A DNA stretch of 64,000 nt from positions 310,001 to 374,000 of the forward strand of contig NZ_WOAC01000002.1 of NCBI RefSeq assembly GCF_009749525.1. Reading direction: 5' to 3'. This stretch comes from Mesorhizobium xinjiangense. GTDB taxonomy: Bacteria; Pseudomonadota; Alphaproteobacteria; Rhizobiales; Rhizobiaceae. Of the stretch, positions 3,848-21,801 are shown in pieces. Position 1 is the stretch's first letter, and every line of letters begins with the position of its first letter. The notes under the pieces were generated by a model. The model searched no databases, was not told the DNA's origin, and saw nothing but the letters and a program-made list of their open reading frames with translations. The position numbers were made by a program, and so were the translations under genes.

Positions 3848-3848
3848 G

Positions 3849-3858
3849 CTGCCACACC
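3849..3858 (-). promoter_or_regulatory. candidate integrase arm-type site 1
   Basis: CTGCCACACC, the complement of GGTGTGGCAG, begins two bases after the attL core. Identical decamers occur at 3932-3941 and 45823-45832, all close to an att core, which is the layout of tyrosine-integrase arm sites. Confidence 0.55.
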
Positions 3859-3866
3859 GGCAGAGT

Positions 3867-5129
3867 TTACCCGTTGATTTTGCGTACCTTTTTCTCGTCA
3901 TCATCGTCGCGGGACGCCACCGCCGCCGCAGGGTGTGGCAGAATGTTCCCGATTTCACCCCAATCGATACGAGCGACGGCCTGTCTGGCCAGCTTCGCCT
4001 GGCGCTTTTTGCGCGTGTAGATCTTCGATGTCTTGCCGTCGCGCCAGCCGAAGAAGCCGTCGAGCATCGAATCCGTCGCCTCGCTCTCGGCGAGGTTGGT
4101 CGCCAGACCCTTGCGGACGCTGTGTGCCGAGCAGTGCTTGAGGCCGGCCTGGTCGAACCATTCCGAAATCCGATTGCCGAGCCCCTTGGTGGTGTAGGGC
4201 TTGCCGAACTCGGTCAGCATGTAGTTCATGCCCTTGACCGGGTGCATGGCGAGCACGGCGTCGAGGACCGGGTGAATTGGTATCTCCAGTGTCACCGGCG
4301 TTCGGTTGCGGTTCTTGAACAGACGCAGCACGAACTTGTCGCCCCGGCGATGCTGCGGCCCGATCTGCCGCAGATCGGACAGGCGGATGCCGGTGTACAT
4401 CAACAGCACCACAGCGAAGACGGCTTTCGATCCGACGCCGTGATGGCGAACATACTGCTCGAGCTCGCTGTCGATGATCGTGTGGAAGCCATCCGTCGGC
4501 TTGCGGAAGGACTTCACGAGCTTGGCCGTGTTCTGCGGAACGATCTTTTCCGCCTTGCCGTCACGGCCCGGCTGTGTGGTCTCGAAGATCTGGCGCAGCG
4601 TCTTCATCCGCTCGTCGGCGGCAAAGGGCGTTGCGGCCTTGCGATCGCGCAGCACGGTGATGTTGGCCACGTCGAGCGCTGGCAGAGGCATGCCGGCGAA
4701 GATCCTGCCGTCGGGCTTCTTCGGGTCTACCGGCTCGCGCAGCATCGATTCGATGATCCTCTTGCGCTTGTACTGCGTTGTCGGGTCGAGCTCGGTGAAG
4801 ATCGCGCATTGCTGGTAGGCATGGCACAGCCAGCGGAAGGTGTTCGGCCTGGGCGGGCCTTTCATGTCGTCGTGGTGCTGATCCTCGCCCGCGCCGCCTT
4901 CCTCGAGCTTCGCACGTTCGGCCCAGTAGGCCTTCATGAAGGCCTCCGAATCCTTGTCGTCAGGCAGGCGGCAGACGCGCCGGCCGTCAACGCGGAAATA
5001 CCACCGCACGGTGCCGTGGCGCGAAACGTTCCGCTCGACATATTTGAGATCGATCGTGGCCAACTCGATCACGCCGACGCCCTCCATCCGGACAGATCGG
5101 CGCCCTTCCTTTCCGCTTCGGTCGGCCAT
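3867..5129 (-). CDS. int: tyrosine-type phage integrase
   Basis: A 420-residue site-specific recombinase that would join phage and host DNA at the tRNA-Thr 3' end. The catalytic domain shows Arg249 in T-G-I-R-L-S-D, Lys272 (probable beta-hairpin lysine), His336 and Arg339 in A-H-S-V-R-K, Trp362 at the His/Trp position and the nucleophile Tyr371 in K-I-Y-T-R-K. Residues about 90-190 form the core-binding domain and the N-terminus the arm-binding part. An internal Met at residue 15 (start 5087) is an alternative that shortens the overlap with the HTH gene upstream. It is the last gene of the leftward operon and ends 20 bp from attL. Confidence 0.95.
   Translation of the reverse strand: MADRSGKEGRRSVRMEGVGVIELATIDLKYVERNVSRHGTVRWYFRVDGRRVCRLPDDKDSEAFMKAYWAERAKLEEGGAGEDQHHDDMKGPPRPNTFRWLCHAYQQCAIFTELDPTTQYKRKRIIESMLREPVDPKKPDGRIFAGMPLPALDVANITVLRDRKAATPFAADERMKTLRQIFETTQPGRDGKAEKIVPQNTAKLVKSFRKPTDGFHTIIDSELEQYVRHHGVGSKAVFAVVLLMYTGIRLSDLRQIGPQHRRGDKFVLRLFKNRNRTPVTLEIPIHPVLDAVLAMHPVKGMNYMLTEFGKPYTTKGLGNRISEWFDQAGLKHCSAHSVRKGLATNLAESEATDSMLDGFFGWRDGKTSKIYTRKKRQAKLARQAVARIDWGEIGNILPHPAAAVASRDDDDEKKVRKING
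3932..3941 (+). promoter_or_regulatory. candidate integrase arm-type site 2
   Basis: GGTGTGGCAG, exact copy of the decamer beside attL and of the one beside attR. It lies inside the 3' end of the integrase gene. Confidence 0.5.
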
Positions 5130-5323
5130 TCCATCATGGCCGCCTCGATCTCGGACAATAGCCAGATTTTCCGGCGGTTCCAGAGCCGAGGGTGCGGAAG
5201 GCTGCCGTCGGCAACCATGGCGTCGACGGTGTTAGGGCTGACGCCCAGGGAAAGGGCAACTTCCATCCGGTTCAGGCCGACACGTGGGACGGGCCTGGAG
5301 AGGTGTCGAGCAGGGTCGCTCAC
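5069..5323 (-). CDS. excisionase-like HTH protein
   Basis: An 84-residue small DNA-binding protein with an AlpA/MerR-type winged helix: residues about 16-55 read as a helix-turn-helix (L-N-R-M-E-V-A-L-S-L-G-V-S-P-N-T-V-D) followed by a wing with the R-K-I-W motif. Its place directly upstream of the integrase and overlapping it is that of an Xis or recombination directionality factor, which would bind the att arms and steer the integrase toward excision. It overlaps the ASCH gene by 4 bp (ATGA). A small regulator of the operon is the other possibility. Confidence 0.75.
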   Translation of the reverse strand: MSDPARHLSRPVPRVGLNRMEVALSLGVSPNTVDAMVADGSLPHPRLWNRRKIWLLSEIEAAMMEWPTEAERKGADLSGWRASA

Positions 5324-5775
5324 AGCAGACTCCCGTCATCAGTATGGCCTGGCTCCGGCACTTCCATGATTCTCTTGCGCCACTCGAAGAAGCCGAGGGC
5401 GCCCTTCACCGGAATGAAAGGGATGGGCCGGGCATTCGCCAGGACGAAGCCATGAGGGCCGACGAACCAGTCGTCATCGGATCCGTCAATGCAATCGACG
5501 AGCTCGGCCACACCGACGATGCCGCCGGTGGCGATCGGAACGCCGTAGCATGCGGGATAGTCGATCCCAAGCAGCGTGCGCTCGCCGGTGACCGGATGAA
5601 CCCCGGCCGTCACCCAATTATGAGCGCCGGTGTCGATCTTCCGCCCGGCGTGGATGGCGACGGGGCCGCGATAGCGTGTCGGCCAGCTGCGGTTTTCGAC
5701 CGATTTGAAGCCGTTGCAGATCAGCCATGCCCATGGCTGCATGATCGACAGGGCGAGTTTGGGAAGTTCGCTCAT
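5320..5775 (-). CDS. ASCH-domain protein
   Basis: A 151-residue protein with an ASCH (ASC-1 homology) fold, a PUA-like RNA- or nucleotide-binding barrel. The N-terminal L-S-I-M-Q-P-W-A-W segment, then K-S-V-E-N-R-S-W and Y-R-G-P-V-A-I-H-A-G-R, are the classic ASCH blocks, and the C-terminal G-A-L-G-F-F-E-W closes the barrel. Phages often carry such proteins; characterised relatives bind nucleic acid and a few are amidohydrolases on modified cytidine, but the substrate here is unknown. Translational coupling by ATGA overlaps on both sides puts it in the leftward early operon. Confidence 0.85.
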   Translation of the reverse strand: MSELPKLALSIMQPWAWLICNGFKSVENRSWPTRYRGPVAIHAGRKIDTGAHNWVTAGVHPVTGERTLLGIDYPACYGVPIATGGIVGVAELVDCIDGSDDDWFVGPHGFVLANARPIPFIPVKGALGFFEWRKRIMEVPEPGHTDDGSLL

Positions 5776-6524: not shown

Positions 6525-6796
6525 GGGCGCCCCTCCTTTCCGAACAGTTCGGCGTCGAGGCGGCCGGCATGCATGACGTCGGGCATCCATGCGGGCTGGC
6601 CGGACATGTCCTGCCGGCCGATCGCCATCTCGATATCGAGGATGAGGGTGAGCGTTTCGGCGACGCGGTCCGCCGTCGCGCGATCGGACGTGCCCGGCCG
6701 CGGGCCGTCCTTGTCCATCACCCAGCCGCATTCGATATCGCTGGCAAGCGAATCGACGAACTGAGCATGGGCGCGTGCGAGCAGGGTATCCTTCAT
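6521..6796 (-). CDS. small phage protein of unknown function
   Basis: A 91-residue, mostly helical, acidic protein. The start at 6796 follows from the 4-bp ATGA overlap with the Gp37/Gp68-type gene upstream; the longer open frame is composition-poor. The sequence (R-A-T-A-D-R-V-A-E-T-L-T-L-I-L-D-I-E-M) suggests a helical bundle. No cysteines in ribbon spacing and no catalytic pattern are seen. The function is unknown; it is co-translated with its neighbours in the leftward operon. Confidence 0.65.
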   Translation of the reverse strand: MKDTLLARAHAQFVDSLASDIECGWVMDKDGPRPGTSDRATADRVAETLTLILDIEMAIGRQDMSGQPAWMPDVMHAGRLDAELFGKEGRP

Positions 6797-7941
6797 CGGG
6801 CTGCCTCCGGCCAATCGTTGTGCTCGCGGCCGTCTAGCGTGCGGCCCGCGGCCTTCTTGCCAACGCGCTGTGCCCATGCGGAGACCTCGAAATACCGGCT
6901 ACGTCTGAGACCTGTGTGCATCGCGCCATCCGGATCCCACATCACGTAATTTCGCGAGGCGAGCTGAGGCGGCACGTGACGAGGTCCCCAGCCGCCATCT
7001 TGCCAGTGCGCAACTCGGCGACCGTCGCCGAAGCCATCGAACACGTCGTTCTGTCCGGGAAGCCAAGCACCCCACTGCTTGAAGAAGAAGGCCGTGCCGG
7101 CTGCGGCGCATTGGTCGCGGATCGAGCGCGCCCAGGCCGGATGCATCGGCCGCGCGCCCGGGCCGCTCTCGCCGCCAACGATGATCCAGTCGAGCTTTTC
7201 GTGGCCGCGAGAGATGGTTCCGGGATGATCGTCGGGAACGTCGTGCCACCAGTTTCCACGAAGCGCGTCGATGAACTTGTGTCCGTTGCAGAAGTCATCA
7301 AACTGGATCGGCCCCAGCAGCGGCTCGGCCGAGACGAAGCGGACGGCGGCCGGCGTGGCCAGCAGGTGCGGAATGCGCTCGTCGGCCTCCTGCTGGCGCT
7401 CGGCCGAGATGCCGAGCCAGACATTGGGAAGGTTCTTGCCGCCCCAGTATGCGAGGGTCTTGCCTTCCGGGATACGGGCCATCTGCCGAGCGCAATGTTC
7501 GATGTAACCCCAGCGGCCGAATCCATCATCGTGGGCAAAATAGTCCCGCATCCGCTCCGCCCGTTTGGTGAGGATCTGGTAGGCGTGCTGCGGAGTGAGC
7601 GCCATGACGGCGAAGACGCGGTCGATCAGCTCGTCCGGCACATCCTCGTGGAAGAGGTCCGACATGGAATTGACGAAGATCGTGCGCGGGCTCTTCCAGC
7701 GCAGCGGCGCCGTCAGGATGCGGTCGGGCGCGGCGGCGATCTTCCCGGTCCAGACCGCGCCAGCCTTCGAGGCCGTCGTCGTGCCGGCATAGTGCGGCGC
7801 GGTACCCATCTTCTCGATGCGCGCCGCCATCTTCATGGCGTAGCAGTTTGTGCAGCCGGGCGAGACGATCGAGCAGCCAGCGACCGGGTTCCAGGTCTCG
7901 CCCTTGGTGCCCGGGCGGTGTGTCCATTCGATCGCGGTCAT
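6793..7941 (-). CDS. phage Gp37/Gp68 (DUF5131) family protein, radical-SAM-like
   Basis: A 382-residue protein beginning M-T-A-I-E-W-T, with W-N-P-V-A-G-C-S-I-V-S-P-G-C-T-N-C-Y-A at about residues 17-35. This C-x6-C-x2-C cysteine triad is what defines the Gp37/Gp68 family and resembles a radical SAM [4Fe-4S] motif, with an F-V-N-S-M-S-D-L-F-H block and I-V-G-G-E-S-G-P-G-A-R-P-M further on. The family is widespread in phages and its reaction is not established. It is the largest gene of the leftward operon and overlaps both neighbours by 4 bp. A role in modifying nucleic acid or protein during infection is only a guess. Confidence 0.88.
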   Translation of the reverse strand: MTAIEWTHRPGTKGETWNPVAGCSIVSPGCTNCYAMKMAARIEKMGTAPHYAGTTTASKAGAVWTGKIAAAPDRILTAPLRWKSPRTIFVNSMSDLFHEDVPDELIDRVFAVMALTPQHAYQILTKRAERMRDYFAHDDGFGRWGYIEHCARQMARIPEGKTLAYWGGKNLPNVWLGISAERQQEADERIPHLLATPAAVRFVSAEPLLGPIQFDDFCNGHKFIDALRGNWWHDVPDDHPGTISRGHEKLDWIIVGGESGPGARPMHPAWARSIRDQCAAAGTAFFFKQWGAWLPGQNDVFDGFGDGRRVAHWQDGGWGPRHVPPQLASRNYVMWDPDGAMHTGLRRSRYFEVSAWAQRVGKKAAGRTLDGREHNDWPEAAR

Positions 7942-9312: not shown

Positions 9313-9579
9313 ATGCAGGCGATGGGCAGGGCAGGCGAAATATCGGATGGAATCGAGGAGCTTATCGAAGGGAGGGTGATCAGCCGCCGAGGGCTTCTTG
9401 GCGGCATGGCAGCGGCTGCAGTACCGGCCAGTGTGGAGGAGATGCTGTCGCTGGAGGAGAGAGTCGAACTCGCAGCAGAAGTTCTGGCGATGTCGATGAA
9501 GGCATTGCACGGCGGCGAATGTATCGTGCGTGTCAGCCATGAGCACGGCTACGTGGCTGTCGCCCGCGACTTCTCGTAG
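9313..9579 (+). CDS. possible small phage protein of unknown function
   Basis: An 88-residue open frame, M-Q-A-M-G-R-A-G-E, with alternating acidic helices and a hydrophobic G-G-M-A-A-A-A-V-P segment, ending in V-A-V-A-R-D-F-S. It is on the plus strand between two minus-strand regulators and overlaps the 3' end of the repressor gene by 31 bp. It has no recognised domain. Composition looks protein-like, but the unusual orientation leaves doubt whether it is expressed. If real it would be transcribed toward the repressor and could oppose it by antisense as well as by product. Confidence 0.4.
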   Translation: MQAMGRAGEISDGIEELIEGRVISRRGLLGGMAAAAVPASVEEMLSLEERVELAAEVLAMSMKALHGGECIVRVSHEHGYVAVARDFS

Positions 9580-9917
9580 TTGGACAGCAGAAACTCTGCA
9601 TAGTCCTCGATCTGGGCGCGAACTTCGGGCGAAGCGTTAGCCGCCCGAAGGAGTAGCTGCTGGATCTTCTGCGACTCTTTGGGAACAACCTCCGGGCCGC
9701 ATTCTTCAAGCAGCCAGGACGCTGTTGTCTGCAGGATTGGCGCAAGCGCTACGAGCGTACGGGTCGAGACACCGCGGTCATTCGAGCCTGCCTTCACGGT
9801 GCGTCGAATGTCACGGATCGCGGAGTTGCTGAGGCCAGCCTGTTTGGCAGCTGCGGACTCGGTCAGTCCGACGGCTTCGAGCCGTGCGTCTATGCGCGCA
9901 AGGATATCTTTCAACAT
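9549..9917 (-). CDS. prophage repressor, XRE-type HTH
   Basis: A 122-residue DNA-binding protein. Residues about 1-55 contain the helix-turn-helix (L-T-E-S-A-A-A-K-Q-A-G-L-S-N-S-A-I-R-D-I-R-R in two blocks), followed by a helical C-terminus that probably dimerises. There is no LexA-type Ala-Gly cleavage and Ser/Lys peptidase domain, so induction is unlikely to be by RecA-stimulated self-cleavage. The start at 9917 is chosen for a GGAGA upstream; a Met at 9974 lies in frame but lacks a ribosome-binding site and overlaps operators. Three operator copies flank the start, implying autoregulation. Confidence 0.82.
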   Translation of the reverse strand: MLKDILARIDARLEAVGLTESAAAKQAGLSNSAIRDIRRTVKAGSNDRGVSTRTLVALAPILQTTASWLLEECGPEVVPKESQKIQQLLLRAANASPEVRAQIEDYAEFLLSNYEKSRATAT

Positions 9918-9993
9918 TTCGGGATTTTCTCCGAGAGCCGCGCATTTGGGTATCGGGAAGATGACCGTTGACATGTTCGGGAAAATAACCGAA
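9918..9993. promoter_or_regulatory. right operator cluster (OR), three sites
   Basis: Three copies of the CGG-N8-CCG palindrome: TTCGGGATTTTCTCCGAG (9918-9935), ATCGGGAAGATGACCGTT (9952-9969) and TTCGGGAAAATAACCGAA (9976-9993, perfect 5-bp arms). They lie between the repressor start and the first rightward gene, spaced 34 and 24 bp. This mirrors the three-site operators of lambdoid phages. The leftmost copy overlaps the repressor's own translation start region. Confidence 0.72.
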
Positions 9994-10004
9994 TGTTCGC
10001 GGCC

Positions 10005-10247
10005 ATGATCGGTATTCCTGACCTTCTGGCCGTCACCGGCGAATATATCCGCGTCACCCAGATCAAGGAGGTGACGCTGAGCTTTCGCGTATTCGGCGAC
10101 AGCAAGAAGCTGAAGATGCTTCGCGAAGGCGCGGACATCACCCTGGGCAAGTTTAACGCGGCACTCCTGTGGCTCTCGACCAATTGGCCGGAGGGTGCGG
10201 AATGGCCGCGCGATGTGCCGCGGCCCATCGCGGAGGCCGCCGAATGA
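10005..10247 (+). CDS. first gene of the rightward early operon, unknown function
   Basis: An 80-residue protein starting M-I-G-I-P-D-L-L-A-V (10005); an in-frame ATG at 9993 overlaps the operator and is less likely. The N-terminal half reads like a small beta sheet (Y-I-R-V-T-Q-I, T-L-S-F-R-V-F), and the rest is a short helix with W-P-E-G. It occupies the cro position, directly under the OR sites, but no helix-turn-helix is visible, so calling it Cro would be unfounded. A 4-bp overlap couples it to the next gene. Confidence 0.65.
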   Translation: MIGIPDLLAVTGEYIRVTQIKEVTLSFRVFGDSKKLKMLREGADITLGKFNAALLWLSTNWPEGAEWPRDVPRPIAEAAE

Positions 10248-10732
10248 CGTTTTCTCCGAAACCTCCCAAGCGCGGTGTCATGCCCGCGCCAACTGCCGGC
10301 CCGGGTGTACCCGCCACCCCGAAGCCCGGGCCGGCATTTTCTGTTTGTCCCCATGGCGATCGGGCCTTCGCCCGGCGCCGTGAAGCAGTCGACGACGACC
10401 GGGGCCCAGTCGGGGCCACGGGTGCCCGGCGTCGTCGGCTGCGTCTGCCGCTCGAGCTCTCCGACGACGTGTCGGTGCTGCTCGCGGTCGTCGCTGCGCA
10501 TGACCGTATCAGCCAGGCCGAGTTCGTTGCGCGCGCCGTTGTCGTTCGCGCCGAGGCGATCGGTATCACCAATCTCGCATTGCAGGGTGGAGAAGCAGCA
10601 TCTCGTCTGGCTCATAACCAGAAGATCGCCGGTGCAAATCCGGCCCCTGCAACCACCCACAACCCTGAGAGCGAGAAGGGGCCGGAGGGCGTGCCGCGTG
10701 GCGCCCTCCGGTCGCCGCCCAAGCCGCCGTAG
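10244..10732 (+). CDS. possible protein whose 3' part overlaps a tRNA gene
   Basis: An open frame of 162 codons with high third-position GC, coupled to the upstream gene by ATGA. The N-terminal 35 residues are Pro-rich and encode both arms of a perfect GC hairpin (10295-10335). Residues about 65-108 (L-P-L-E-L-S-D-D-V, then I-S-Q-A-E-F-V-A-R-A-V-V) look like a ribbon-helix-helix. From codon 113 the frame runs through a complete tRNA(CAT), so the C-terminal 50 residues are probably not selected as protein. The true gene may be shorter or may have been interrupted by tRNA capture. Confidence 0.4.
   Translation: MTFSPKPPKRGVMPAPTAGPGVPATPKPGPAFSVCPHGDRAFARRREAVDDDRGPVGATGARRRRLRLPLELSDDVSVLLAVVAAHDRISQAEFVARAVVVRAEAIGITNLALQGGEAASRLAHNQKIAGANPAPATTHNPESEKGPEGVPRGALRSPPKPP
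10295..10335 (+). terminator. perfect 11-bp GC hairpin, terminator-like
   Basis: GCCGGCCCGGG (10295-10305) and CCCGGGCCGGC (10325-10335) are exact inverted repeats with a 19-nt loop, followed by ATTTTCTGTTT. It would stop early rightward transcription soon after the promoter, a typical site for antitermination control. It sits within the preceding open frame. Confidence 0.5.
10581..10655 (+). tRNA. phage tRNA with CAT anticodon, initiator-like
   Basis: A full cloverleaf with CCA: acceptor TGCAGGG/CCCTGCA (7 pairs), D-stem GAGA/TCTC, anticodon stem TCTGG/CCAGA with loop CTCATAA, 5-nt variable loop, T-stem GCCGG/CCGGC with loop TGCAAAT. The layout, including a weak U1-A72 pair, resembles the initiator-like tRNAs found in many phages. 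Oddities: a shortened D-loop without the usual GG, G instead of T at position 55, and no run of three G-C pairs in the anticodon stem. Elongator Met or Ile2 cannot be excluded. Confidence 0.8.
10682..10711. other. perfect hairpin after the phage tRNA
   Basis: CCGGAGGGCG (10682-10691) and CGCCCTCCGG (10702-10711) pair exactly with a 10-nt loop, 26 nt after the tRNA CCA end. No T-run follows, so it is more likely a processing or stability element than a terminator. Confidence 0.4.
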
Positions 10733-10806
10733 GTCATGTGAATTGCGGGCCGTCTGTTCGTTCTTCGTCATGCCCGCACTCTGAACACAACCAGCCTTTC
10801 CCGCCA

Positions 10807-10831
10807 CGGGAAACGACGCCGGGGTTTCCCG
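10807..10831. promoter_or_regulatory. inverted repeat upstream of the early operon
   Basis: CGGGAAAC (10807-10814) and GTTTCCCG (10824-10831), with a third half-site GCGGGAAC just after. It lies 36 bp before the gene at 10868. It shares the CGGGAAA core with the repressor operators but has a different spacing, so it may bind another factor or form an RNA hairpin. Confidence 0.35.
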
Positions 10832-10867
10832 GTGCGGGAACCTTTTTGCACCCTGACGGAGGTCGCA

Positions 10868-11368
10868 ATGTCTCATTTCGGCGATGCCTGGTTTCACCGG
10901 CTCAAGGCCGCCCAGCGCGATCTGATCAAGATGGCCGGCGGCATCGAGCGCACGGCCGAGCTCACCAGCTTCTCCAAATCCGAGGTCGGGCGCTGGAACT
11001 TGGCCGGCGAGGGGCAGCTCATGCCGCTTGCCGCCGTCTTCGCGCTGGAGATGGAGGTCGGTGTGCCGATCGTCACCTCGGCCATGGCCGGATTGCAGGG
11101 CAGGCGGCTTTCCGATCCGGCGGAGGATGAGGCACGCGTCGGCGACGTGCTGGCGCGCTTTTCCGACGCGGCCCGCCAGTCTGCCGATCTCACAGCTGCC
11201 GGCGCCCTGGCGCTTGCCGACGGCAAGATCACGCCGGCGGAGGCCTCCGAGATCGATCGCGCGGCAAGCCGGCTGCAGCAATCGATCGTCGACCTGCGCA
11301 ACGCACTCGCCGGCACGAAGGCTGCGGGCGGCTTCTCGGTGGTCGATGGAGGGCGGGCCAATGGTTGA
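10868..11368 (+). CDS. early phage protein with HTH-like N-terminus
   Basis: A 166-residue protein. The start at 10868 has a GGAGG site 8 bp upstream. Residues about 8-50 (A-A-Q-R-D-L-I-K-M-A-G-G-I-E-R-T-A-E-L and S-K-S-E-V-G-R-W) look like a degenerate helix-turn-helix in the style of CII or Cro-like regulators. The rest is helical, with a long Ala-rich amphipathic region toward the C-terminus. It is the first gene after the tRNA and hairpin block, in the place where lambdoid phages have cII or the start of replication genes. A regulator of the rightward operon is the best guess. Confidence 0.65.
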   Translation: MSHFGDAWFHRLKAAQRDLIKMAGGIERTAELTSFSKSEVGRWNLAGEGQLMPLAAVFALEMEVGVPIVTSAMAGLQGRRLSDPAEDEARVGDVLARFSDAARQSADLTAAGALALADGKITPAEASEIDRAASRLQQSIVDLRNALAGTKAAGGFSVVDGGRANG

Positions 11369-11616
11369 TCCGCATGCGACCTATGACGCGGCGTGCCGGC
11401 ACGTGTCGCTTGCCGAGCTCGAATGGGCACGACTGCCGCTTCCCGGTCGGGGCGTCGGATGCGGCGGTTGGCCGGCACCTCTTTTGCGGCAATCCCGCCG
11501 CGCCGGGATCCTCCTATTGCGCGCACCATGCCGAGCGTTCGGTGGGCGAGGGCACGCGCGGCGAGCAGCAGGCAGCGAAAACGCTGGAGGTTCTCGGCCG
11601 GGAGAGGGCGGCGTGA
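11361..11616 (+). CDS. GcrA C-terminal-like protein with an apparent frameshift
   Basis: Frame 2 (from ATG 11365) carries D-C-R-F-P-V-G, then L-F-C-G-N-P-A and S-S-Y-C-A-H-H, the cysteine/histidine motif at the C-terminus of the cell-cycle regulator GcrA. The preceding frame, from ATG 11361, reads V-S-L-A-E-L-E-W, the sort of sequence expected just before that motif. The two join if one G of GGG at 11425-11427 is removed. So this is either a frameshift mutation, a sequencing slip or a recoding site; otherwise the 83-codon product from 11365 is made alone. GcrA proteins bind methylated promoters with sigma70; here methylase genes follow closely. Confidence 0.6.
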
Positions 11617-11723
11617 ACCGCTACATCCTCGCCCTCGTCGTTTATCCCGCCATGGTCGCCGCCGTTGGCGCGGTGCTGGCGATCGTTTTCCCATGGCATG
11701 CGCTTCCCGGGAGGCCCTGGTGA
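11613..11723 (+). CDS. 36-residue single-pass membrane protein
   Basis: A GTG start at 11613 overlaps the upstream TGA (GTGA). The product [20 protein letters not shown] is mostly one hydrophobic helix with a short polar tail ([11 protein letters not shown]). The stop overlaps the ATG of the GapR-like gene as TGATG. It is too short for a family call, but the tight coupling on both sides argues it is translated. Confidence 0.45.
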
Positions 11724-12058
11724 TGGCTGACGATCAGGCATACGACCCCTATGCGCCGCGCGGGCCGGCGCGCGAGCGACCCGGCGCCAAACTGAAGGAC
11801 GATGAAGGCGAGGCGAGCGGGCCGCAGACAATCGCGGCCGGGCAGCTGCGCGCCTTCATCGAGCGGGTCGAGCGCGTGCAGGAAGACATCGACGAGCTGA
11901 CAGACGATCGGAAGGAGATATACGCCGAGGCGAAGTCCACGGGCTTCGACACCAAGGCCATTCGCACCATCGTCAAGCTGCGCAAGATGGACCAGGGCGA
12001 ACGGCAGGAAGCCGAGGCGATCATCGATCTCTACAAGCATGCGCTCGGGATGGATTGA
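11723..12058 (+). CDS. GapR-like (DUF2312) nucleoid-associated protein
   Basis: A 111-residue protein. The first 38 residues are a variable acidic leader; residues about 39-111 match DUF2312/Gap[15 protein letters not shown] followed by a coiled coil ([18 protein letters not shown]), G-F-D-T-K-A-I-R and L-R-K, ending L-Y-K-H-A-L-G-M. In Caulobacter GapR clamps overtwisted AT-rich DNA ahead of replication and transcription. A phage copy could aid phage DNA replication or displace the host protein. It lies directly before the methylase genes, with TGATG coupling. Confidence 0.88.
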
Positions 12059-13212
12059 TGGGGACGTATCAGCTCCTCCCGCCGCTTTCGGCCGAAGACT
12101 ACGCCGCGCTCGAGGCGTCGATCGTCGAGCACGGCGTGCTCGTGCCCGTCGAGTATGACGAGGACGGCAATATTCTCGACGGCCATCACCGCGTGCAGGT
12201 GTGCGAAAGCCTCGGCCTGGTCGACTGGCCGCGCTTCGTGCGCAAAGGGCTGGACGAGGCGGAAAAGCGGACCCTGGCGCGCGAGCTCAATGTTTCGCGC
12301 CGGCACCTGACCAGCGCGCAAAAGCGCGAGCTGATCGAGGGGCAGCTTCGCGACACGCCTTCGATCTCGTCGCGCGCAATCGCTGCCATGCTGGGCGTCG
12401 ACGACAAGACGGTTTCCAAGGTGCGCCGGCAGCTCGTCGATGCTGCGGAAATTCCGCACCACGACGAAGTGGAGGGCCGCGACGGAGTCAGGCAGCCGGC
12501 CAGCAAGCCGATCCGCACGGCCTATCTGCCGGATCCGGACAACCGGCGCGAGCTGATGAAGGTGGCGAAGGATCTGCGCTCCGAGCAGCAGCATGCGCGC
12601 CACCAGGTTCGCCTTGCCCATATGGACATGGTCGCCGAGCGCGGCCGGGCTAATGCGCCGGGCAAGCTCGACCGCGCCTATCCCGTCTATTACGCCGACC
12701 CGCCGTGGAAGTTCGGCGTGCGCTCGGAGGTGACTGGGCGCGAGAAGAGCGCCGAAAACCACTATCCCACCATGACGACCGACGAGATCGTCGAACTGAT
12801 GGCCGGGCTGATTGCCGGCGACAATCCCGCGGTGCTTTTCCTTTGGGCGACCAACCCGATGCTGCCCGACGCGCTGCGTGTCATGGAGGCCTGCGGCTTT
12901 GCCTATGTGCATCACTGGATCTGGGACAAGGAAGACATCGGCAACGGCTATTGGGGCCGCGACCGGCACGAACTCTTGCTGATTGGCCGGCGCGGCGACG
13001 TGGCCGCGCCCTTGCCCGGCACGCAGCCCGAGACGGTCTACCGCGAGAAGAAGGGCCCACACTCGGCCAAGCCCGACTATTTCGCCGAAACGATCGAGCG
13101 GCTCTATCCGGGCATTGCGCGGCTGGAGCTCTTCGCCCGCCACGCGCGCCCGGGCTGGGATGTTTGGGGGTTTGAAGCCGGTGGTGACGCAACGGCGGAG
13201 GCAGCGCAATGA
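12058..13212 (+). CDS. ParB-like / MT-A70 adenine methyltransferase fusion
   Basis: A 384-residue two-domain protein. Residues 1-100 form a ParB/Srx N-terminal domain (Y-A-A-L-E-A-S-I-V-E-H-G-V-L-V-P-V, then I-L-D-G-H-H-R), followed by a HTH (I-S-S-R-A-I-A-A-M-L-G-V-D-D-K-T-V). Residues about 210-375 are an MT-A70 domain with the catalytic D-P-P-W at about 216 and L-F-L-W-A-T-N-P. It would put N6-methyl groups on adenine in DNA, guided by the ParB-like module. The start at 12058 overlaps the GapR stop (TGATG). This fusion occurs in phages and integrative elements; its target sequence is unknown. Confidence 0.9.
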   Translation: MGTYQLLPPLSAEDYAALEASIVEHGVLVPVEYDEDGNILDGHHRVQVCESLGLVDWPRFVRKGLDEAEKRTLARELNVSRRHLTSAQKRELIEGQLRDTPSISSRAIAAMLGVDDKTVSKVRRQLVDAAEIPHHDEVEGRDGVRQPASKPIRTAYLPDPDNRRELMKVAKDLRSEQQHARHQVRLAHMDMVAERGRANAPGKLDRAYPVYYADPPWKFGVRSEVTGREKSAENHYPTMTTDEIVELMAGLIAGDNPAVLFLWATNPMLPDALRVMEACGFAYVHHWIWDKEDIGNGYWGRDRHELLLIGRRGDVAAPLPGTQPETVYREKKGPHSAKPDYFAETIERLYPGIARLELFARHARPGWDVWGFEAGGDATAEAAQ

Positions 13213-14120
13213 CAGATGCGCTCAAGCCGACCCGTCCGGTTCTGCGCTGGCATGGTGGCAAGTGGAAACTTGCCCCGTGGATTCTCTCACATTTTCCGCT
13301 GCACAGGATCTATGTCGAGCCGTTCGGCGGTGCGGCGAGCGTGCTGATGCGCAAGCCGCGCAGCTATGCCGAGGTCTATAACGATCTCGACGACGAGGTC
13401 GTGACGCTGTTCCGCGTTTTGCGGGACCGCGAACATGCAGCCCGGCTGGTCGAATTGCTCGAGTTCACGCCTTTTGCCCGCACGGAGTTTCGCGACGCCT
13501 ATGAGCCGACCGACGATCCGGTCGAGCGGTCGCGCCGATTAATCGTCCGCGCGTATATGGGGTTCGGCTCGAATGCCCATAGCTCGCAACACAAGGGCCA
13601 TCGATCGACAGGTTTCCGCGCCAACTCGTCGCGTTCCGGTACAACGCCGGCGCAGGATTGGGCCAATTATCCGACGGCATTGGCCGCCCTCATCGAACGC
13701 CTTGCTGCTGTCGTTGTCGAGAATCGCGACGCCTGCCAGGTGATGGCTCAGCACGATTCGTCGGACACTCTGCATTATGTCGATCCGCCCTATCTCCCCG
13801 AGACGCGGGCGCGTGGCAATCGCTATGACCTCGCCTGGCGCATGTATCGCCACGAACTCAGCCGAGACGATCATGCCGACCTCCTCTCCTTCCTGTGCGG
13901 CCTTGAGGGCATGGTTGCGCTGTCCGGTTATCCGGACCCGCTATACGACGACACGCTTGCCGACTGGCGCCGGGTAGAGGTCAAGGCCTTTGCCGATGGC
14001 GCGCGCGAACGGGTTGAGGTGCTGTGGCTCAATCCTGCGCTGTCCTGCCGGCTCGATCTTGAGCGCGCCGCCCATGCCGGCGGCCATGGCACGCCACTGT
14101 TTGCGGAGGCGGCGCAATGA
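13209..14120 (+). CDS. Dam-type DNA adenine N6-methyltransferase
   Basis: A 303-residue D12-class enzyme. N-terminal L-R-W-H-G-G-K-W-K-L is the SAM-binding motif with the Dam-family G-G-K, followed by Y-V-E-P-F-G-G-A-A-S-V, and the catalytic D-P-P-Y lies at about residue 193. The insert after D-P-P-Y is a target-recognition region. Such solitary phage enzymes methylate adenine in a short site, protecting phage DNA from restriction or altering gene regulation. The target cannot be read from sequence. It overlaps the preceding methylase by 4 bp, so two different adenine methylases are co-translated. Confidence 0.93.
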   Translation: MTDALKPTRPVLRWHGGKWKLAPWILSHFPLHRIYVEPFGGAASVLMRKPRSYAEVYNDLDDEVVTLFRVLRDREHAARLVELLEFTPFARTEFRDAYEPTDDPVERSRRLIVRAYMGFGSNAHSSQHKGHRSTGFRANSSRSGTTPAQDWANYPTALAALIERLAAVVVENRDACQVMAQHDSSDTLHYVDPPYLPETRARGNRYDLAWRMYRHELSRDDHADLLSFLCGLEGMVALSGYPDPLYDDTLADWRRVEVKAFADGARERVEVLWLNPALSCRLDLERAAHAGGHGTPLFAEAAQ

Positions 14121-14584
14121 CCGGCGAGCCCGACATTGACCGCGCCATGGCGCGGCTGCGCAAAGCGCTGATGCGGCGCATGCAGCGCGACGAGCGGGCC
14201 GAGGAACTGGCCGACCGCGCGCCTCGGCCGATCCGCTGTGGCGAGCTGGCCGCCTATGACACCGCCGCGCTCGGCCGGCGGCTCAGGCCGATGCTGGAAT
14301 TCGACGGGCGCGGCTGGCGGGCCTTGGCGGCCGAGATCGGCGTCACCTCGCCGGACCTTTCGCGCGTGATGGCTGGCCAGGACGTCTCGGTGGCGAAAAT
14401 CTTCGCAATCTGCGACTGGGCCGGGCTCGACCCCCGCGCCTACTACAGGGCGCCGCGCGGTGCGCCCCTGCCGCGCAAACGGGCACGGCCCTCGTTCAAA
14501 TCTCCTGCCTCACGCGCCGATACGCCGCCTGAGGCCGCCGCGTGTTTCACGGGAATAGCACTGAAACAGCGGGGTGGCTCGTGA
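14117..14584 (+). CDS. HTH protein of unknown function
   Basis: A 155-residue basic protein. Residues about 65-112 (G-W-R-A-L-A-A-E-I-G-V-T-S-P-D-L-S-R-V-M, A-K-I-F-A-I-C-D-W) form an XRE-like helix-turn-helix. The N-terminus is a charged helix (R-K-A-L-M-R-R-M-Q-R) and the C-terminus is a disordered basic tail. It is probably a DNA-binding regulator of the early operon; coupling by ATGA to the Dam gene is clear. Confidence 0.75.
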   Translation: MTGEPDIDRAMARLRKALMRRMQRDERAEELADRAPRPIRCGELAAYDTAALGRRLRPMLEFDGRGWRALAAEIGVTSPDLSRVMAGQDVSVAKIFAICDWAGLDPRAYYRAPRGAPLPRKRARPSFKSPASRADTPPEAAACFTGIALKQRGGS

Positions 14585-16018: not shown

Positions 16019-16599
16019 CTGTGGCTGCGCACAATCCGGCCATGTCCGAAGGCGAGCGCCTGCGTGAGATTCGCGCCGCCCTCGAGGCGATCGAGCCCGG
16101 CCGCTGGCAGCGCGCCGCCGATGCCGAGGGCGAGCTCGTCGAGGCCTTCGGCGAGCAGGGCGAGCTCCTGCCGATCGCGCGGTTTCATCCCGGCGCCACG
16201 GCCGACGAGGTTGCCTTCATCACGGACGCACCGGCAATGGTGCGATTCCTGCTGGGGCTGGTGGATCGGGCGATTGCTGCTTCTCGCGCTCACGGCCGTG
16301 CCGCGCCTTCGGCGCTGGCCTCCGCGGGGGCGGCCTCGGGCGAAGATCGCGCTGAGCATGCCGGCAAGAACTATTCCGCCGAAGCGGCGATGAAGTGCCA
16401 GGAGCCGGCGTTCAAGCGGTTCCTGCATGAGCGGCACGGGCTGGACAAGCCGATGACCACCGAACGCACGGCGCAAAAGTTGCGCTCGCTGCTCGGCGTC
16501 ACCAGCCGCGCCGACATCAACAACGGCGGCGAAGCACTGACACGCTGGAAGCGCCTGCGCGGCGAATTCTTCGAATGGATAAAGGAGGGGCGGGGATGA
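16015..16599 (+). CDS. early phage protein of unknown function
   Basis: A 194-residue protein with two parts: an N-terminal 90 residues resembling a small alpha/beta domain (L-R-E-I-R-A-A-L-E-A-I-E, then D-E-V-A-F-I-T-D-A-P-A-M-V-R-F-L), and a C-terminal 60 residues (C-Q-E-P-A-F-K-R-F-L-H-E-R-H-G-L) that look like a helical adaptor. The middle is Ala-rich and likely disordered. A role with the neighbouring nuclease or methylase is inferred only from overlap. Confidence 0.65.
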   Translation: MTVAAHNPAMSEGERLREIRAALEAIEPGRWQRAADAEGELVEAFGEQGELLPIARFHPGATADEVAFITDAPAMVRFLLGLVDRAIAASRAHGRAAPSALASAGAASGEDRAEHAGKNYSAEAAMKCQEPAFKRFLHERHGLDKPMTTERTAQKLRSLLGVTSRADINNGGEALTRWKRLRGEFFEWIKEGRG

Positions 16600-18761
16600 A
16601 GGTCCTGTTCGAGGACGATTCTGAGCCGTCGGGGCCCCCGCGCTCACGCTGGCGCTGCCTGCCGTGCCCTGGGCGATACCCGGCCGCGAAAGTGCCGGTT
16701 CCGTCAATACCGCCGGCGAAGAATGGGGCACGCAAGATCGTCGTCGCGGACGGGTTCGCAGGCGGAGGAGGTGCCACAAACGGGATTGAGGCTGGGCTCG
16801 AGCAGCTTCATGCCATGGAACTGCTGCCCGCCGGGCACCCGCTGCACGTTACCTATGCGATGAATCACGACGACGCGGCGATCGCCATGCACAAGGTGAA
16901 CCATCCGCGCACGATCCACCTGCCGGCGAACGTCTGGCAGGTCTCGATGCGCGAGATGTTGGGTGACGACTTGTTCGGGCTTCTCTGGCTGTCGCCGGAC
17001 TGTCGCGACCATTCACCGGCCAAGGGCGGCCCCATCACGTCGCGGGCGGTGCGCGATCTCGCCTGGGTCGCGATCAAGTATCTGAAAGAGCTACCAGCTT
17101 GGCAGCGGCCGTGGATCATCTGCCTGGAGAACGTGAGCGCGTTCGCCAAATGGTCGCCGCTGATCGAGCGGCCGGACGGGCAGGGATACATGCGTGACCC
17201 GGACCGTCTCGGCTGGACCTTCCACCAGTTCGTGCACGCGCTTTCGCGCTACGGCTACTCGATCGGCTGGAAGGAGGTCGTCGCCTGCGATCACGGCGCC
17301 CCGACAATCCGCAAGCGGTTGAAGCTGGTGGCGCGGCGCGACGGTCTGCCGGTCGAGTGGCCCGAGGCAACGCATGGTGATCCGAAATCCGAGGCCGTGA
17401 AATCGGGCGCGCTGAAGCCGTGGCCGGTTGCGGCCGACATTCTCGACTGGTCGGAAGATTGCCCTTCGATCTTCATGACCAAGGAGGAGGCGAGGGAATA
17501 CACGAAGCGCACCGGCAAGCGGATCATCCGGCCCCTGGTGGTGAAGACGCATGCCCGGCTGGCTTACGGCGTCAAGCGCCATGTGCTCGACGCGGGCGAC
17601 GACGCCTTTGTGGTGACCTGCAACCATGCCGGCGACGGCTTCCGGGGGCAGGGGCTTGGGAAGCCGTTCGCGACGGTTGCCCGGGCTCGCGATGCGCACG
17701 GGCTTGTGGTGCCGCATGTCGCGGTGTTCCGGGGTGATAGTTCGGGCAAGCCAGTCACGGACACTATGCCAACCGTCACGGCCAACAGCTTTATCAACAG
17801 ACCTGGTGGCGCATCTCCCCTTGGCTTGGTGGAGGCGGCGATTTCGCCCTTCGTCAGCCGCGGCCAGCACGGCGGAGGCAATCGGCCGGCAACCGAGCCG
17901 GTGCACACGATCGCGGCCTCGGACGGCGACCAGAACCAAATTGTCGTGCCCTACCTCGTCCCGCGTTATGGCGAGCGCGACGGGCAAGCGCCGCGCAGTG
18001 TGGGTGTCGATCGGCCTGCGCCGACGCCGGTACCGGACGGCAATCAGGGCAGCCTGGCAGCGGTCTATCTCGCGCAGCACAACAACGACAGCCGAAGGGT
18101 GACGGGCGTCAATCCCGGCCGTCCGGCGGGCAAGCCGCTGTCCACCATCACGCATGAGGCGTCGCAGCAGCAGGTGGTGGCCGCGTCGATGCTGTCGCTC
18201 AAAGGCAGCGATAGGCGCGACGGTTCCTGCGAGGATCCTCACCCGGCCGTCTGCGCCTCGGGCCAGCACTCGGCCGTCGTGACGCTCCCGCTGATGACGG
18301 CCTACTATTCGACCGGCGGGCAGCACGCACGCGTCGACAGTCCATCACTGACCGTCCCGACCAAGGCGCGTTTCGGCCTGACGGAAGTCGATGCGGCGAT
18401 GCCGCCGCTCTCGTCGGCGCAGTGGGCACGAGCGCGCCAGGTCGCGGCGTTCCTGCGCGCGCATGGCTGCTGGGACGGCGGCGAGATCGTGACGCTGACG
18501 ATCCGCGGCACGGTCTTCATCATCGTTGACATTGGCATGCGCATGTTGAAGCCGCGCGAGCTCGCCCGGGCGCAGGGCTTTCCGGACAGCTACGTCCTCG
18601 ATCCGATCTTCAACGGCAAGCCGCTGTCGGAGACCGAGCAGCGGCACAAGATCGGGAACTCGGTCTGTGAGAAGCCCGCAGCGGCCGTGATCGTATCGAA
18701 CTACCGGCCGCCGCTCGAATGGGGCGAGCAGGCGGCACCATTCATGGAGGCAGCGGAATGA
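16596..18761 (+). CDS. phage DNA (cytosine-5-)-methyltransferase
   Basis: A 721-residue enzyme, longer than most. The SAM motif F-A-G-G-G-G-A-T is at about residue 54, motif IV appears as W-L-S-P-D-C-R-D-H-S (about 131) with Asp in place of Pro before the catalytic cysteine, and motif VI E-N-V at about 178. Between residues 330 and 610 are several repeats with the core P-x-x-T-(I/V) and a following Q/N-rich turn, a target-recognition region. Motif X (K-I-G-N-S-V-C) closes the fold. It methylates cytosine in an unknown site. It is the third methylase of the operon, and the start at 16596 is set by ATGA overlap. Confidence 0.9.
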   Translation: MKVLFEDDSEPSGPPRSRWRCLPCPGRYPAAKVPVPSIPPAKNGARKIVVADGFAGGGGATNGIEAGLEQLHAMELLPAGHPLHVTYAMNHDDAAIAMHKVNHPRTIHLPANVWQVSMREMLGDDLFGLLWLSPDCRDHSPAKGGPITSRAVRDLAWVAIKYLKELPAWQRPWIICLENVSAFAKWSPLIERPDGQGYMRDPDRLGWTFHQFVHALSRYGYSIGWKEVVACDHGAPTIRKRLKLVARRDGLPVEWPEATHGDPKSEAVKSGALKPWPVAADILDWSEDCPSIFMTKEEAREYTKRTGKRIIRPLVVKTHARLAYGVKRHVLDAGDDAFVVTCNHAGDGFRGQGLGKPFATVARARDAHGLVVPHVAVFRGDSSGKPVTDTMPTVTANSFINRPGGASPLGLVEAAISPFVSRGQHGGGNRPATEPVHTIAASDGDQNQIVVPYLVPRYGERDGQAPRSVGVDRPAPTPVPDGNQGSLAAVYLAQHNNDSRRVTGVNPGRPAGKPLSTITHEASQQQVVAASMLSLKGSDRRDGSCEDPHPAVCASGQHSAVVTLPLMTAYYSTGGQHARVDSPSLTVPTKARFGLTEVDAAMPPLSSAQWARARQVAAFLRAHGCWDGGEIVTLTIRGTVFIIVDIGMRMLKPRELARAQGFPDSYVLDPIFNGKPLSETEQRHKIGNSVCEKPAAAVIVSNYRPPLEWGEQAAPFMEAAE

Positions 18762-19936
18762 GCGCCTTGCTGCTGGGAACCGGATTTAGCGCCGACATGG
18801 GCACCTGTGTACGCAAGTTGGTGCTCCTGAAGCTGATCGATGCTTGCGAAAATGACGGCACGCGCATCTTCCCTGCCGTTGCGACGGTGGCGCGGGTGGC
18901 GCAGTGCTCGACCCGCCAGGTGCAGCGCGAGCTCAAGAGCTTCGTCGAGATCGGCCTGCTCCGCCTCGTTCGCGAGGGCGGCAAGGGCCGGCGCTCGACC
19001 AACGAGTATGCGATGGACCTGGGCGTTCTGGCCGAAATCTGCCGGGAGGGCTGGGACGCCCATGTCGCATCCAAGGGTGACAGGGAGTCACCCTTGGATG
19101 CAGGTGCCAAGGGTGACGTAGACGGTACCGATAGGGTGACACAGGCGACCCTTAAGGGTGACATCAGGAGTCACCCAACCCCTCCAGACTCCTCCAATGA
19201 ACCCTCCATGGCGCGCGAGAGCACGCGAGAGAGAGGCGATCTCAATGATGAAGGGAATGAAGAAGAGGGGAATGGATCGGTCGATGACCCTGCGAAATTC
19301 GAGAAGAGGGTGAAGAAGGTTGCGGCCGATACGGCATGGCCTGGCTGGGCTGGCTCCTCGACGGGATGGACCGTACGCCAGTTTGCCGGGCTGACCGACG
19401 CGGAACGGGCAGAGGGTGAGAAATCCGCCGATCGATATCTCAACCATTGCCGGTCGAAGAAGATCAGTCCCGTCTCCCTCGGTGTGTTCTTCCGGGATCG
19501 CAAGTGGACCGACCTGCCGGATGAGGTGCTGAACCCAATGGCGGGCAAGCCGGACGACTACGCGCCGCCCTTCGGGCCGGTGTGGGGGCTCTGGCGGATG
19601 ATGCACATGCTGGTGACAGGCAGTCCGGATGAAGACGGCCGCTGGAAGTTGGTGGAGCATCTGAACCGGAAAGCGCGCATCGGACAAGGGCATCGGTTCG
19701 CGGAGCGTTTTCACAGGAAGGAACTTCTGGCGCTTATGGAAGCCGTCCCGGTGGGCTCGGAGATCTATGCGGCATGGGAGCGTGAGCACGAGAAGCGCGG
19801 CTGGCCATGGGTGCCGGACCCGGGCGGGCAGCGGGTGGTCTACTTCCCGGCCGGTGGCCCGGATGGCTTGAGCGAATTCGAAGCGGCGATGCGAGGGAAC
19901 AGTGATGATGACGGCACGCGGCAAGCAGCTGAATGA
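18758..19936 (+). CDS. phage replication initiator-like HTH protein
   Basis: A 392-residue protein. Residues about 30-90 are a winged HTH (F-P-A-V-A-T-V-A-R-V-A-Q-C-S-T-R-Q-V, E-I-G-L-L-R-L-V-R-E-G-G-K-G) of the kind found in phage O-type and plasmid Rep proteins. An acidic, low-complexity linker follows, encoded over the iteron cluster at 19071-19176, then a C-terminal domain. The linker's encoding of iterons parallels the lambda O gene. It overlaps the m5C methylase by 4 bp and the NusG-like gene by 35 bp. It likely opens the origin and recruits host helicase, though no helicase loader is obvious next to it. Confidence 0.75.
   Translation: MSALLLGTGFSADMGTCVRKLVLLKLIDACENDGTRIFPAVATVARVAQCSTRQVQRELKSFVEIGLLRLVREGGKGRRSTNEYAMDLGVLAEICREGWDAHVASKGDRESPLDAGAKGDVDGTDRVTQATLKGDIRSHPTPPDSSNEPSMARESTRERGDLNDEGNEEEGNGSVDDPAKFEKRVKKVAADTAWPGWAGSSTGWTVRQFAGLTDAERAEGEKSADRYLNHCRSKKISPVSLGVFFRDRKWTDLPDEVLNPMAGKPDDYAPPFGPVWGLWRMMHMLVTGSPDEDGRWKLVEHLNRKARIGQGHRFAERFHRKELLALMEAVPVGSEIYAAWEREHEKRGWPWVPDPGGQRVVYFPAGGPDGLSEFEAAMRGNSDDDGTRQAAE
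19071..19176. other. iteron cluster, candidate phage replication origin
   Basis: Several copies of the core GGGTGAC in about 106 bp: direct at 19075-19081, 19111-19117, 19134-19140 and 19156-19162; inverted at 19087-19093 and 19170-19176; a variant inverted copy at 19146-19152. CCAAGGGTGAC (19071-19081) and its inverse (19087-19097) form a perfect 11-bp palindrome, and the first form recurs at 19107-19117. The position inside the initiator-like gene matches lambdoid origins. Confidence 0.65.
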
Positions 19937-20558
19937 GGCCAAACCAATCAATCTCGACCGGTGCTATGCCGAATCGGATCGGCAGATGGAGGTGGGCCGT
20001 CGTCAGCAGGCATTGCTTGCAGCAGCGGGTATGGACGGGCCTGTGCGGCGCTGGGCAATCGTCAAGGTTGCGCCGAACCGCGAAAATGATGTGGATAAGT
20101 CGCTGTCGGCGGCACTGATCGAGCATTGGCTGCCGCTGAGGAAGGCCGACAAGAACGTCGGCGGGCGTAGGACTGGGAGCAATGGAGACGCAATCTGGGT
20201 GCTCGCCTGGCCCGGCTACATCTTCGTGAAGGTGCCCGATCTGCCAGAGGCCTGGGCGGGGATCGCGACCGTAAAGCACACGCTCTCGGTGCTCGGCGCG
20301 GATGAAAGGCCTTTCTTCATTGACGACGCTACGATGTTGAAAATCAAGGCGGAACTATCGACGCTGAAAGACCTGCCGCGCAACGCCGGCACAATGTTCG
20401 CCAAGGGCGACAAGGTGCGTGTGGAGGAAGGGCCGTTCGCCTCGTTCCCGGCCACGATCGACGAGATCGGCAAGGATGGACGGGCGCGCGTCGAGGTGAT
20501 GATCTTCGGGCGGATGTCGCCCGTCGAGCTCGATCTTGCGCAATTGGCGAAATCGTAA
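19902..20558 (+). CDS. phage NusG-family transcription elongation / antitermination protein
   Basis: A 218-residue NusG paralogue. Residues about 48-150 are the NGN domain (R-R-W-A-I-V-K-V-A-P-N-R-E-N-D, W-P-G-Y-I-F-V-K-V), and residues about 165-218 the KOW domain (G-D-K-V-R-V-E-E-G-P-F-A-S-F, V-M-I-F-G-R-M). The host NusG at 51750 shows the same G-P-F-A-S-F and I-F-G-R blocks, so the relationship is visible within the window. It would bind RNA polymerase and let it pass terminators into the late genes. An N-terminal extension of about 45 residues is not in the host protein. It ends the early operon, like phage antiterminator genes. Confidence 0.85.
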   Translation: MMMTARGKQLNEAKPINLDRCYAESDRQMEVGRRQQALLAAAGMDGPVRRWAIVKVAPNRENDVDKSLSAALIEHWLPLRKADKNVGGRRTGSNGDAIWVLAWPGYIFVKVPDLPEAWAGIATVKHTLSVLGADERPFFIDDATMLKIKAELSTLKDLPRNAGTMFAKGDKVRVEEGPFASFPATIDEIGKDGRARVEVMIFGRMSPVELDLAQLAKS

Positions 20559-21785: not shown

Positions 21786-21801
21786 CACTCCGGGGTGCCG
21801 T

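Follow-up and report, generated by a model that had tools for sequence, protein, structure and literature searches.

The early region of a prophage of Mesorhizobium xinjiangense, located in the 64,000-nucleotide stretch that was analysed here (contig NZ_WOAC01000002.1, positions 310,001 to 374,000 of the forward strand, part of a 5.26 Mb genome; hereinafter the window, in whose coordinates all features are given), encodes homologs of the cell cycle proteins GcrA and GapR together with adenine methylases. The best explanation, which in our estimate has an even chance of being correct, is that this region is the early operon of a vB_MseS-P1-like temperate prophage, with a swappable slot for host-takeover genes in which a GcrA variant that consists of the C-terminal sigma70-interacting domain (SID) alone acts on sigma70. 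In full-length GcrA, the SID binds sigma70 domain 2 and the N-terminal domain recognizes methylated promoters, as described in the available portion of PMC7403470. Taken together, these phage genes look less like a copied host circuit and more like exchangeable host-takeover add-ons that circulate among related phages.

The core of the region is a chain of overlapping open reading frames (ORFs), all on the forward strand. It starts with a CII-type transcription regulator, the first gene of the conserved operon (10868–11368; phrog_101, E-value 1.4e-20), which is followed by the SID-like gene that lacks the DNA-binding domain and is frame-broken (11361–11616), a 36-amino-acid ORF that appears hydrophobic by eye (11613–11723), a GapR (UPF0335/DUF2312) homolog (11723–12058), a protein with a ParB-like N-terminus and an MT-A70 adenine methylase domain (12055–13212), and a D12/Dam-type adenine methylase (13209–14120). 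An earlier note on this DNA described a four-gene cluster at 10868–14120 that begins with a GcrA-like gene. The overlapping, same-strand arrangement is real, but the phrog_101 match rules out the ORF at 10868–11368 as the GcrA gene, and the chain does not end at 14120: it extends through small ORFs, a C5 cytosine methylase, a helix-turn-helix (HTH) protein and a NusG paralog, after which the terminase genes follow.

For the analysis of genomic context, the ParB/MT-A70 gene was chosen as the anchor because it was expected to be phage-specific, and the best 77 of 193 relatives in genome contigs and the best 80 of 143 in viral contigs were examined. In Rhizobiales, the usual order of these loci is CII – slot – ParB/MT-A70 – (D12) – (C5) – HTH replication-type protein – NusG or, with the optional slot genes written out, CII-(GcrA)-(GapR)-ParB/MT-A70-(D12)-(C5)-HTH-NusG. 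The named phage vB_MseS-P1 shows this order, and so does Agrobacterium phage Rivra, from which GcrA and GapR are absent; it is missing from more distant loci, which were found in bacteria of other phyla. A complete slot between CII and the methylase was found in 116 sequences (the window, vB_MseS-P1 and Rivra included), of which 58 remained after dereplication; the other 58 were removed as near-copies (ParB/MT-A70 at least 90% alike, same content), among them L172, which has a D12 gene, and L021, L099 and L100 were left out of the counts because the stretch examined showed no CII gene. Of the 58 dereplicated stretches, 52 contain the HTH protein and 51 contain NusG. The slot itself is variable: GapR occupies 27 of the 58, GcrA 16, both together 9, and neither is present in 24. 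Across all 116 complete slots, 38 GapR and 22 GcrA first-pass matches fall inside the slot and none outside, so that the slot is real and specific. A further weak match of 48 bases to the GcrA-like region, in L175 (G003), comes without any operon-model match on the scanned strand.

Thirteen of the 16 slot GcrA proteins, including that of the window, contain no detectable DNA-binding domain; in 10 of these 13, there is room for fewer than 45 codons ahead of the SID match, and many of the ORFs start within the end of the CII gene, overlapping its stop codon. A hidden Markov model (HMM) of the DNA-binding domain run over 877 slot ORFs matches L030, L078, L158 and L058 and, weakly (E-values 0.002–0.003), two short HTH ORFs restricted to the L106 and L108 slots, and none of the 13 SID-only ORFs or their slots. 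A split GcrA, with the DNA-binding half encoded as a separate slot gene, was considered and rejected since no such ORF is present in the 13 SID-only slots. The 12 SID-only proteins other than that of the window share 13 invariant columns, among which is the CCCH set (C34, C48, C65, H68), and an inserted segment containing W and PG that separates the second cysteine from the third. When the alignment of the 13 SID-only proteins is compared by hhalign with that of seven full-length GcrA proteins, the probability is 97.6 and the E-value 3.5e-12. When the Pfam GcrA model is run on three SID-only relatives, vB_MseS-P1 gp15, which is annotated as GcrA in the phage record, scores 18.0 bits and L123 21.8 bits (cut-off 26.9), and L017 gives no match. 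The SID-only profile, run against 397 genomes of the order, returned nine weak matches (best E-value 2.1e-6), which presumably are host GcrA proteins.

The AlphaFold model of L123 (84 amino acids; mean predicted local distance difference test, pLDDT, 76.9) leads to the same family. GcrA entries alone reach Z of 2 or higher with this model: 5yix_B, the SID in complex with sigma70 domain 2 (Z 4.3, root mean square deviation 2.5, 47 of 48 residues), 7ye2_G (Z 4.3) and 7ye1_G (Z 4.2). The predicted fold gains weight from GcrA being the sole family listed and from the independent sequence evidence, and it suggests that the SID-only proteins might bind sigma70 domain 2. With the SID present and the N-terminal reader absent, these proteins are not expected to act alone as a methylation-read switch; a decoy or a Crl-like cofactor is possible.

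In the window, a GcrA C-terminal-like gene, as claimed in the earlier note, does exist, as the ORF at 11361–11616, but it is frame-broken and retains the SID only. The PF07750 match (36.6 bits; cut-off 26.9) covers just positions 102–143 of the 155 in the profile, that is, the SID, with at most 29 codons ahead of it; the DNA-binding-domain HMM (residues 1–45, the methylated-DNA-binding domain) finds no match in the window slot, and the NCBIfam GcrA equivalog NF050816 is not reached (19.8 bits; cut-off 280). The frame of 11365–11616 contains the CCCH core, and the N-terminal homology falls in another frame: the residues encoded from the ATG at 11361 resemble the full-length proteins L078 and L030 (p 0.0005, the floor with 2000 shuffles) and show no significant similarity to L274 (p 0.20), Atu_ph08 (p 0.42) or host GcrA (p 0.15), and the equivalent stretch in the core-holding frame scores weaker (p 0.03 against L078 and 0.006 against L030). 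Given that the homology is split over two frames, the gene is either broken or misassembled; relatives hold copies with an intact frame. The IMG/VR contig L094 is identical to the window at all 18,343 of the 18,343 bases compared, starting at 3867. This contig probably comes from the same isolate, so that the identity does not discriminate between an assembly error and a true frame break. By blastp, the window SID best matches L274 (54.7 bits), which reads as SID-only and adjoins GapR, followed by the SID-only L104 (47.4 bits) and the full-length L030 (43.1 bits).

The GapR assignment is based on a PF10073 score of 106.9 bits (cut-off 22.6) and an E-value of 1.6e-19 to GapR structures in the PDB; the NCBIfam subfamily NF010247 is reached (107.6 bits against 94) and the GapR equivalog NF052541 is not (86.6 against 140). 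Domain searches thus place the two small proteins in GcrA (PF07750) and DUF2312 (PF10073), in agreement with the earlier note. At the eight DNA-contact positions compared (K34, K42, K49, K56, K59, K60, R63 and K66), the window protein has I, K, K, K, R, T, K and K, with six basic residues out of eight versus seven of eight in the host rows (one of which has H at position 60). Position 34 is I in nine of the 27 slot GapR proteins, the window included, and K in four host rows; together, these nine make up the whole of one starred phage clade (support 100/99) in a tree of 106 rows and 95 columns, many forks of which are unresolved. The window GapR is closer to that of vB_MseS-P1 (79%) than to that of its own host (67%). 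At least five changes of the slot label are needed to account for the starred branches, and at least six once the rows from the GapR scan that are linked to CII are counted as operon (11 tree rows with a CII match in their stretch were relabelled accordingly), which implies that GapR genes of several lineages entered, left or were swapped in the slot.

Scanning viral contigs for GapR (best 80 loci, 77 distinct GapR domains) shows that GcrA, GapR and adenine methylase genes meet elsewhere, as a minority pattern. A GcrA gene is found no farther than 1.2 kb from GapR in 6 of these 77 loci, a number that rises to 9 at 2.5 kb and to 11 at 5 kb; for MT-A70 or D12, the counts are 9 at 1.2 kb and 17 at 5 kb. 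No fewer than 11 of the 77 loci have CII in the vicinity and may be members of the operon family. GapR is followed by a SID-only GcrA in L274 and by a full-length GcrA in Atu_ph08. Outside the operon family, L242 and L009 encode GapR followed by full-length GcrA, and L242 adds a D12 gene, the closest parallel to the four-gene set. The linkage, whose conservation in Rhizobiales prophages the earlier note proposed to check, recurs as a minority theme in the early regions of alphaproteobacterial phages and no more than that: the four families occur together in 1 of the 58 dereplicated slots, namely the window, so that a conserved four-gene module was rejected, and D12 is found within 5 kb downstream in two of the 58 loci, the window and L046.

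These observations are compatible with the following scenario. The usual frame of the operon consists of CII, the ParB/MT-A70 methylase, the HTH replication-type protein and the NusG paralog, and the slot between CII and the methylase would hold exchangeable small host-takeover genes that are expressed early. The phage GapR most likely behaves as the host protein does, binding overtwisted DNA ahead of phage replication forks and polymerases. The SID-only GcrA most likely would bind domain 2 of the host sigma70, leaving methylated DNA unread, and could compete with the host GcrA, loosening the GcrA/CcrM program while the phage replicates. The methylases are best read as putative orphan self-protection enzymes. 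The most specific part of this proposal, that the stand-alone GcrA SID of Rhizobiales temperate phages is an early sigma2-directed factor that unplugs methylation-coupled cell cycle transcription of the host, is offered tentatively, with rather less than an even chance.

Several observations weigh against this scenario. Three of the 16 slot GcrA proteins (L030, L078 and L158) are full-length and keep the methyl-reading domain, and a fourth protein, from L058, looks full-length too: this 188-amino-acid ORF was missed by the SID search (with it, the GcrA count is 17 of 58) and matched via its DNA-binding half, the C-terminal half being SID-like by eye only. GcrA and GapR do not co-occur above chance in the 58 slots (Fisher p=0.27, kinship ignored). 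The structural Z of 4.3 is modest, and Foldseek lists GcrA chains for the L123 model only at E-values of 0.53 and 1.2. The window SID lacks the W..PG insertion that is found in the other 12 SID-only proteins and, judging from its broken frame, this copy may be inactive. Furthermore, a sigma-only activator would fit the data as well as a decoy does.

In the activator version, which we consider somewhat unlikely, the SID-only GcrA would be a Crl- or RbpA-like sigma70 activator devoid of DNA specificity that boosts phage promoters. It draws on the same structural evidence as the decoy, namely the hhalign result and the L123 model compared with the SID, and Crl provides a precedent for a sigma2-binding activator that does not contact DNA (PMC7403470, in the portion available). 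Known activation by GcrA, as described in the same text, is however linked to the N-terminal domain and its recognition of methylated promoters, and no phage promoter was identified between 8900 and 11700, where a promoter search gave no sigma70-type match.

Still less probable is that the slot genes are ordinary mosaic cargo, in the sense that small early genes simply cluster in temperate phages, and that the GcrA remnant is decaying. The absence of excess co-occurrence of GcrA and GapR, the broken frame in the window and the rarity of D12 all fit this possibility. Conversely, decay is not expected to leave 12 dereplicated relatives with open SID-only frames and 13 invariant columns that include CCCH, and cargo of this kind accounts poorly for the confinement of all GcrA and GapR matches to the slot in the 116 complete slots and for the recurrence of adjacent GapR and GcrA genes in phages that do not belong to the operon family.

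The methylases bear on the interpretation of the earlier note, according to which the phage carries a copy of the GcrA/CcrM/GapR circuit that would either rewrite host promoter methylation or place phage replication under a methylation-read switch. The ParB/MT-A70 protein was correctly identified (PF05063, MT-A70, 68.5 bits; phrog_21315, 1.3e-155; ParB-like N-terminal matches in PHROGs). The Dam-type assignment of the second enzyme is partly upheld, by PF02086 (MethyltransfD12, 67.5 bits; cut-off 22) and by Dam structures, but the Dam model TIGR00571 is not reached (59.6 bits against 114.85). The host genome has a full-length GcrA and a GapR of its own, together with a single PF01555 methylase that presumably is CcrM. 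Neither phage adenine methylase shows a significant blastp match (E of 0.25 or higher) to the host PF01555 protein or to p027 of phiLM21, the sole GANTC-specific phage enzyme compared, and they carry the motifs DPPW (ParB/MT-A70) and DPPY (D12), not NPPx.

The distribution of GANTC sites does not favor the circuit copy either. GANTC is depleted in the prophage (54 sites against 103.9 expected), which speaks for such a copy, but the host flanks are depleted too (43 against 57.9). No GANTC starts within 9857–12484, which covers the leader of the early operon, so the operon of the window is not an obvious GcrA/CcrM target. Enrichment of GANTC upstream of cII was considered as a sign of GcrA control and discarded: in a comparison with 400-nucleotide tiles, 45 of 57 loci have GANTC upstream of cII (mean 1.18 versus 0.55), but this excess turned into a deficit against dinucleotide shuffles of the 420 nucleotides upstream of CII in the 57 loci (65 sites seen, 109.8 expected). 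The sites upstream of cII cluster in the last 120 nucleotides. One leader type, represented by 30 dereplicated loci (e.g., L152, L036 and L104), has a block located about 60 nucleotides before cII, with a consensus of roughly TTCAYNGAATC...TTCCTTGA, that contains GAATC, a CcrM target; the block was selected via the neighboring TTC[CA]TTG, with 29 cases in the scanned block and L158, which was anchored at a different place, added by eye. This block is absent from the window. It resembles an inverted repeat, and its GANTC site has A in the middle in all cases, so that a site for a phage regulator is as likely as a methylation site, and host CcrM may control other members of the operon family. 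Thus, despite the presence of all the families in overlapping genes, the existence of full-length phage GcrA in phiCbK and Atu_ph08 (PMC3556154, PMC6630229, as far as available), the GANTC specificity of some sinorhizobial phage methylases (PMC5537653, likewise) and the GAATC block of relatives, a circuit copy is highly improbable for a phage that has no reader domain in its GcrA-like protein, methylases unlike those of the host and phiLM21, a GANTC-free leader and a four-family set found nowhere else among the 58 slots.

The leader of the operon has features of its own. ARAGORN predicts a tRNA-Met(CAT) gene at 10581–10655 (+). Of 96 distinct loci, 23 (e.g., L005 and L006) have a tRNA gene, mostly tRNA-Met(CAT), in the 900 nucleotides before CII, and both isolated phages have one, for Met in vB_MseS-P1 and for Leu in Rivra. 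Directly before cII, at 10826–10840 (+), there is a terminator-like hairpin with a T tail (three terminators were found in the stretch against 3.0 expected by chance; fold z −1.86), and palindromes are present at 10797–10847, with similar ones, by eye, before cII in many relatives. Together with the NusG paralog in 51 of the 58 stretches, these elements suggest a terminator/antitermination pair like lambda tR1.

As delimited in IMG/VR, the prophage spans 3867–47169 (+; contig L094 of 43,303 bp), with a right end that follows from the length of the contig, and includes integrase, terminase, portal and capsid genes. The tyrosine integrase (3867–5129, −; PF00589, 47.6 bits) adjoins tRNA-Thr at 3771–3846; an att-site search between 3601–4000 and 46001–49000 found just 12 bases in common, with another tRNA. 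In the left arm, there are an ASCH-domain gene (5320–5775) and a gene for a DUF5131 protein (6793–7941, −; 318.5 bits), and vB_MseS-P1 has gp5 (ASCH) and gp6 (annotated as spore photoproduct lyase) at a similar place. A repressor-like HTH regulator is encoded at 9549–9974 (−; phrog_8, 4e-6; phrog_4, 3e-5). Downstream of the D12 gene, all on the forward strand, come an HTH protein that is next in the chain (14117–14584; PF13560, 0.003, below cut-off), the C5 cytosine methylase-like protein (16575–18761; PF00145, 51.1 bits), another HTH protein in the position of the vB_MseS-P1 gene annotated as replication initiation protein (18719–19936; PF13551 and PF13730 below cut-off), the NusG paralog, a putative antiterminator (19902–20558; PF02357, 41.3 bits; the NCBIfam nusG, LoaP and RfaH models all below cut-off), and the small and large terminase subunits (21222–23538; PF05119, PF20441 and PF03354).

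If the scenario proposed here is correct, the phage SID would target sigma domain 2 and the alphaproteobacterial cell cycle program; in the available portion of a review, all sigma-repressors but one are phage proteins, described as targeting sigma domain 4 (PMC7403470). It would also be a natural separation-of-function GcrA, in which sigma binding can be examined apart from the reading of methylated DNA. Taken alone, the window is more ordinary, with one broken GcrA copy and an unconserved four-gene circuit; the linkage in vB_MseS-P1, an isolated, inducible phage described for its RcGTA relatives (PMC11409702, available portion), makes this reading directly testable. The terms 'GcrA', 'GapR' and 'cell cycle' are not found in the available text of that paper, the word 'phage' is absent from the text of a paper on host GapR (PMC7373187), and neither a reader-less phage GcrA nor a function of phage GapR was found in the open-licence literature searched. 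Three records labelled as Microcystis or Pseudanabaena phages, PP438406 (L007), ON014757 (L008) and PP395640 (H8), contain genes annotated as GcrA or DUF2312; given that these families are typical of Alphaproteobacteria, the host assignments of these phages may be wrong.

One known system that comes close is the early operon of vB_MseS-P1 (PP232116), with the order CII – GcrA (106 amino acids) – ORF – GapR – ParB – ParB/MT-A70, followed further on by C5 methylase – replication protein – NusG – HNH – terminase; unlike the window, it has an intact GcrA frame and no D12 in the 17.7 kb examined. Host GapR (PDB 6OZX, 6CG8) shares PF10073 and most DNA-contact residues with the window protein, which differs by I in place of the K34 of the four host rows and by falling below the equivalog cut-off. 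The phiLM21-type GANTC methylases are likewise orphan adenine methylases, encoded in the replication region of phages of rhizobia (PMC5537653, available portion), but they have NPPx where the window has DPPW and DPPY, and p027 shows no significant similarity to the window enzymes; GcrA and COG3750/UPF0335 are listed in a table of ORFs of phiLM21-like prophages (PMC12429752, as far as available). Phage-borne full-length GcrA is already in print for phiCbK gp222, assigned to pfam07750 (PMC3556154), and for Atu_ph08 gp5 (PMC6630229), both papers being available in part; the Atu_ph08 protein adjoins a GapR gene and retains the DNA-binding half that 13 of the 16 slot GcrA proteins lack. Finally, with Caulobacter GcrA, a sigma70 cofactor (SID, PDB 5YIX), the phage proteins share the C-terminal, CCCH-containing SID, as indicated by the hhalign comparison and the superposition of the L123 model, and they differ from it in the absence of the N-terminal methyl-DNA-binding domain, in the W/PG insertion of the 12 relatives and in their location in a phage operon.

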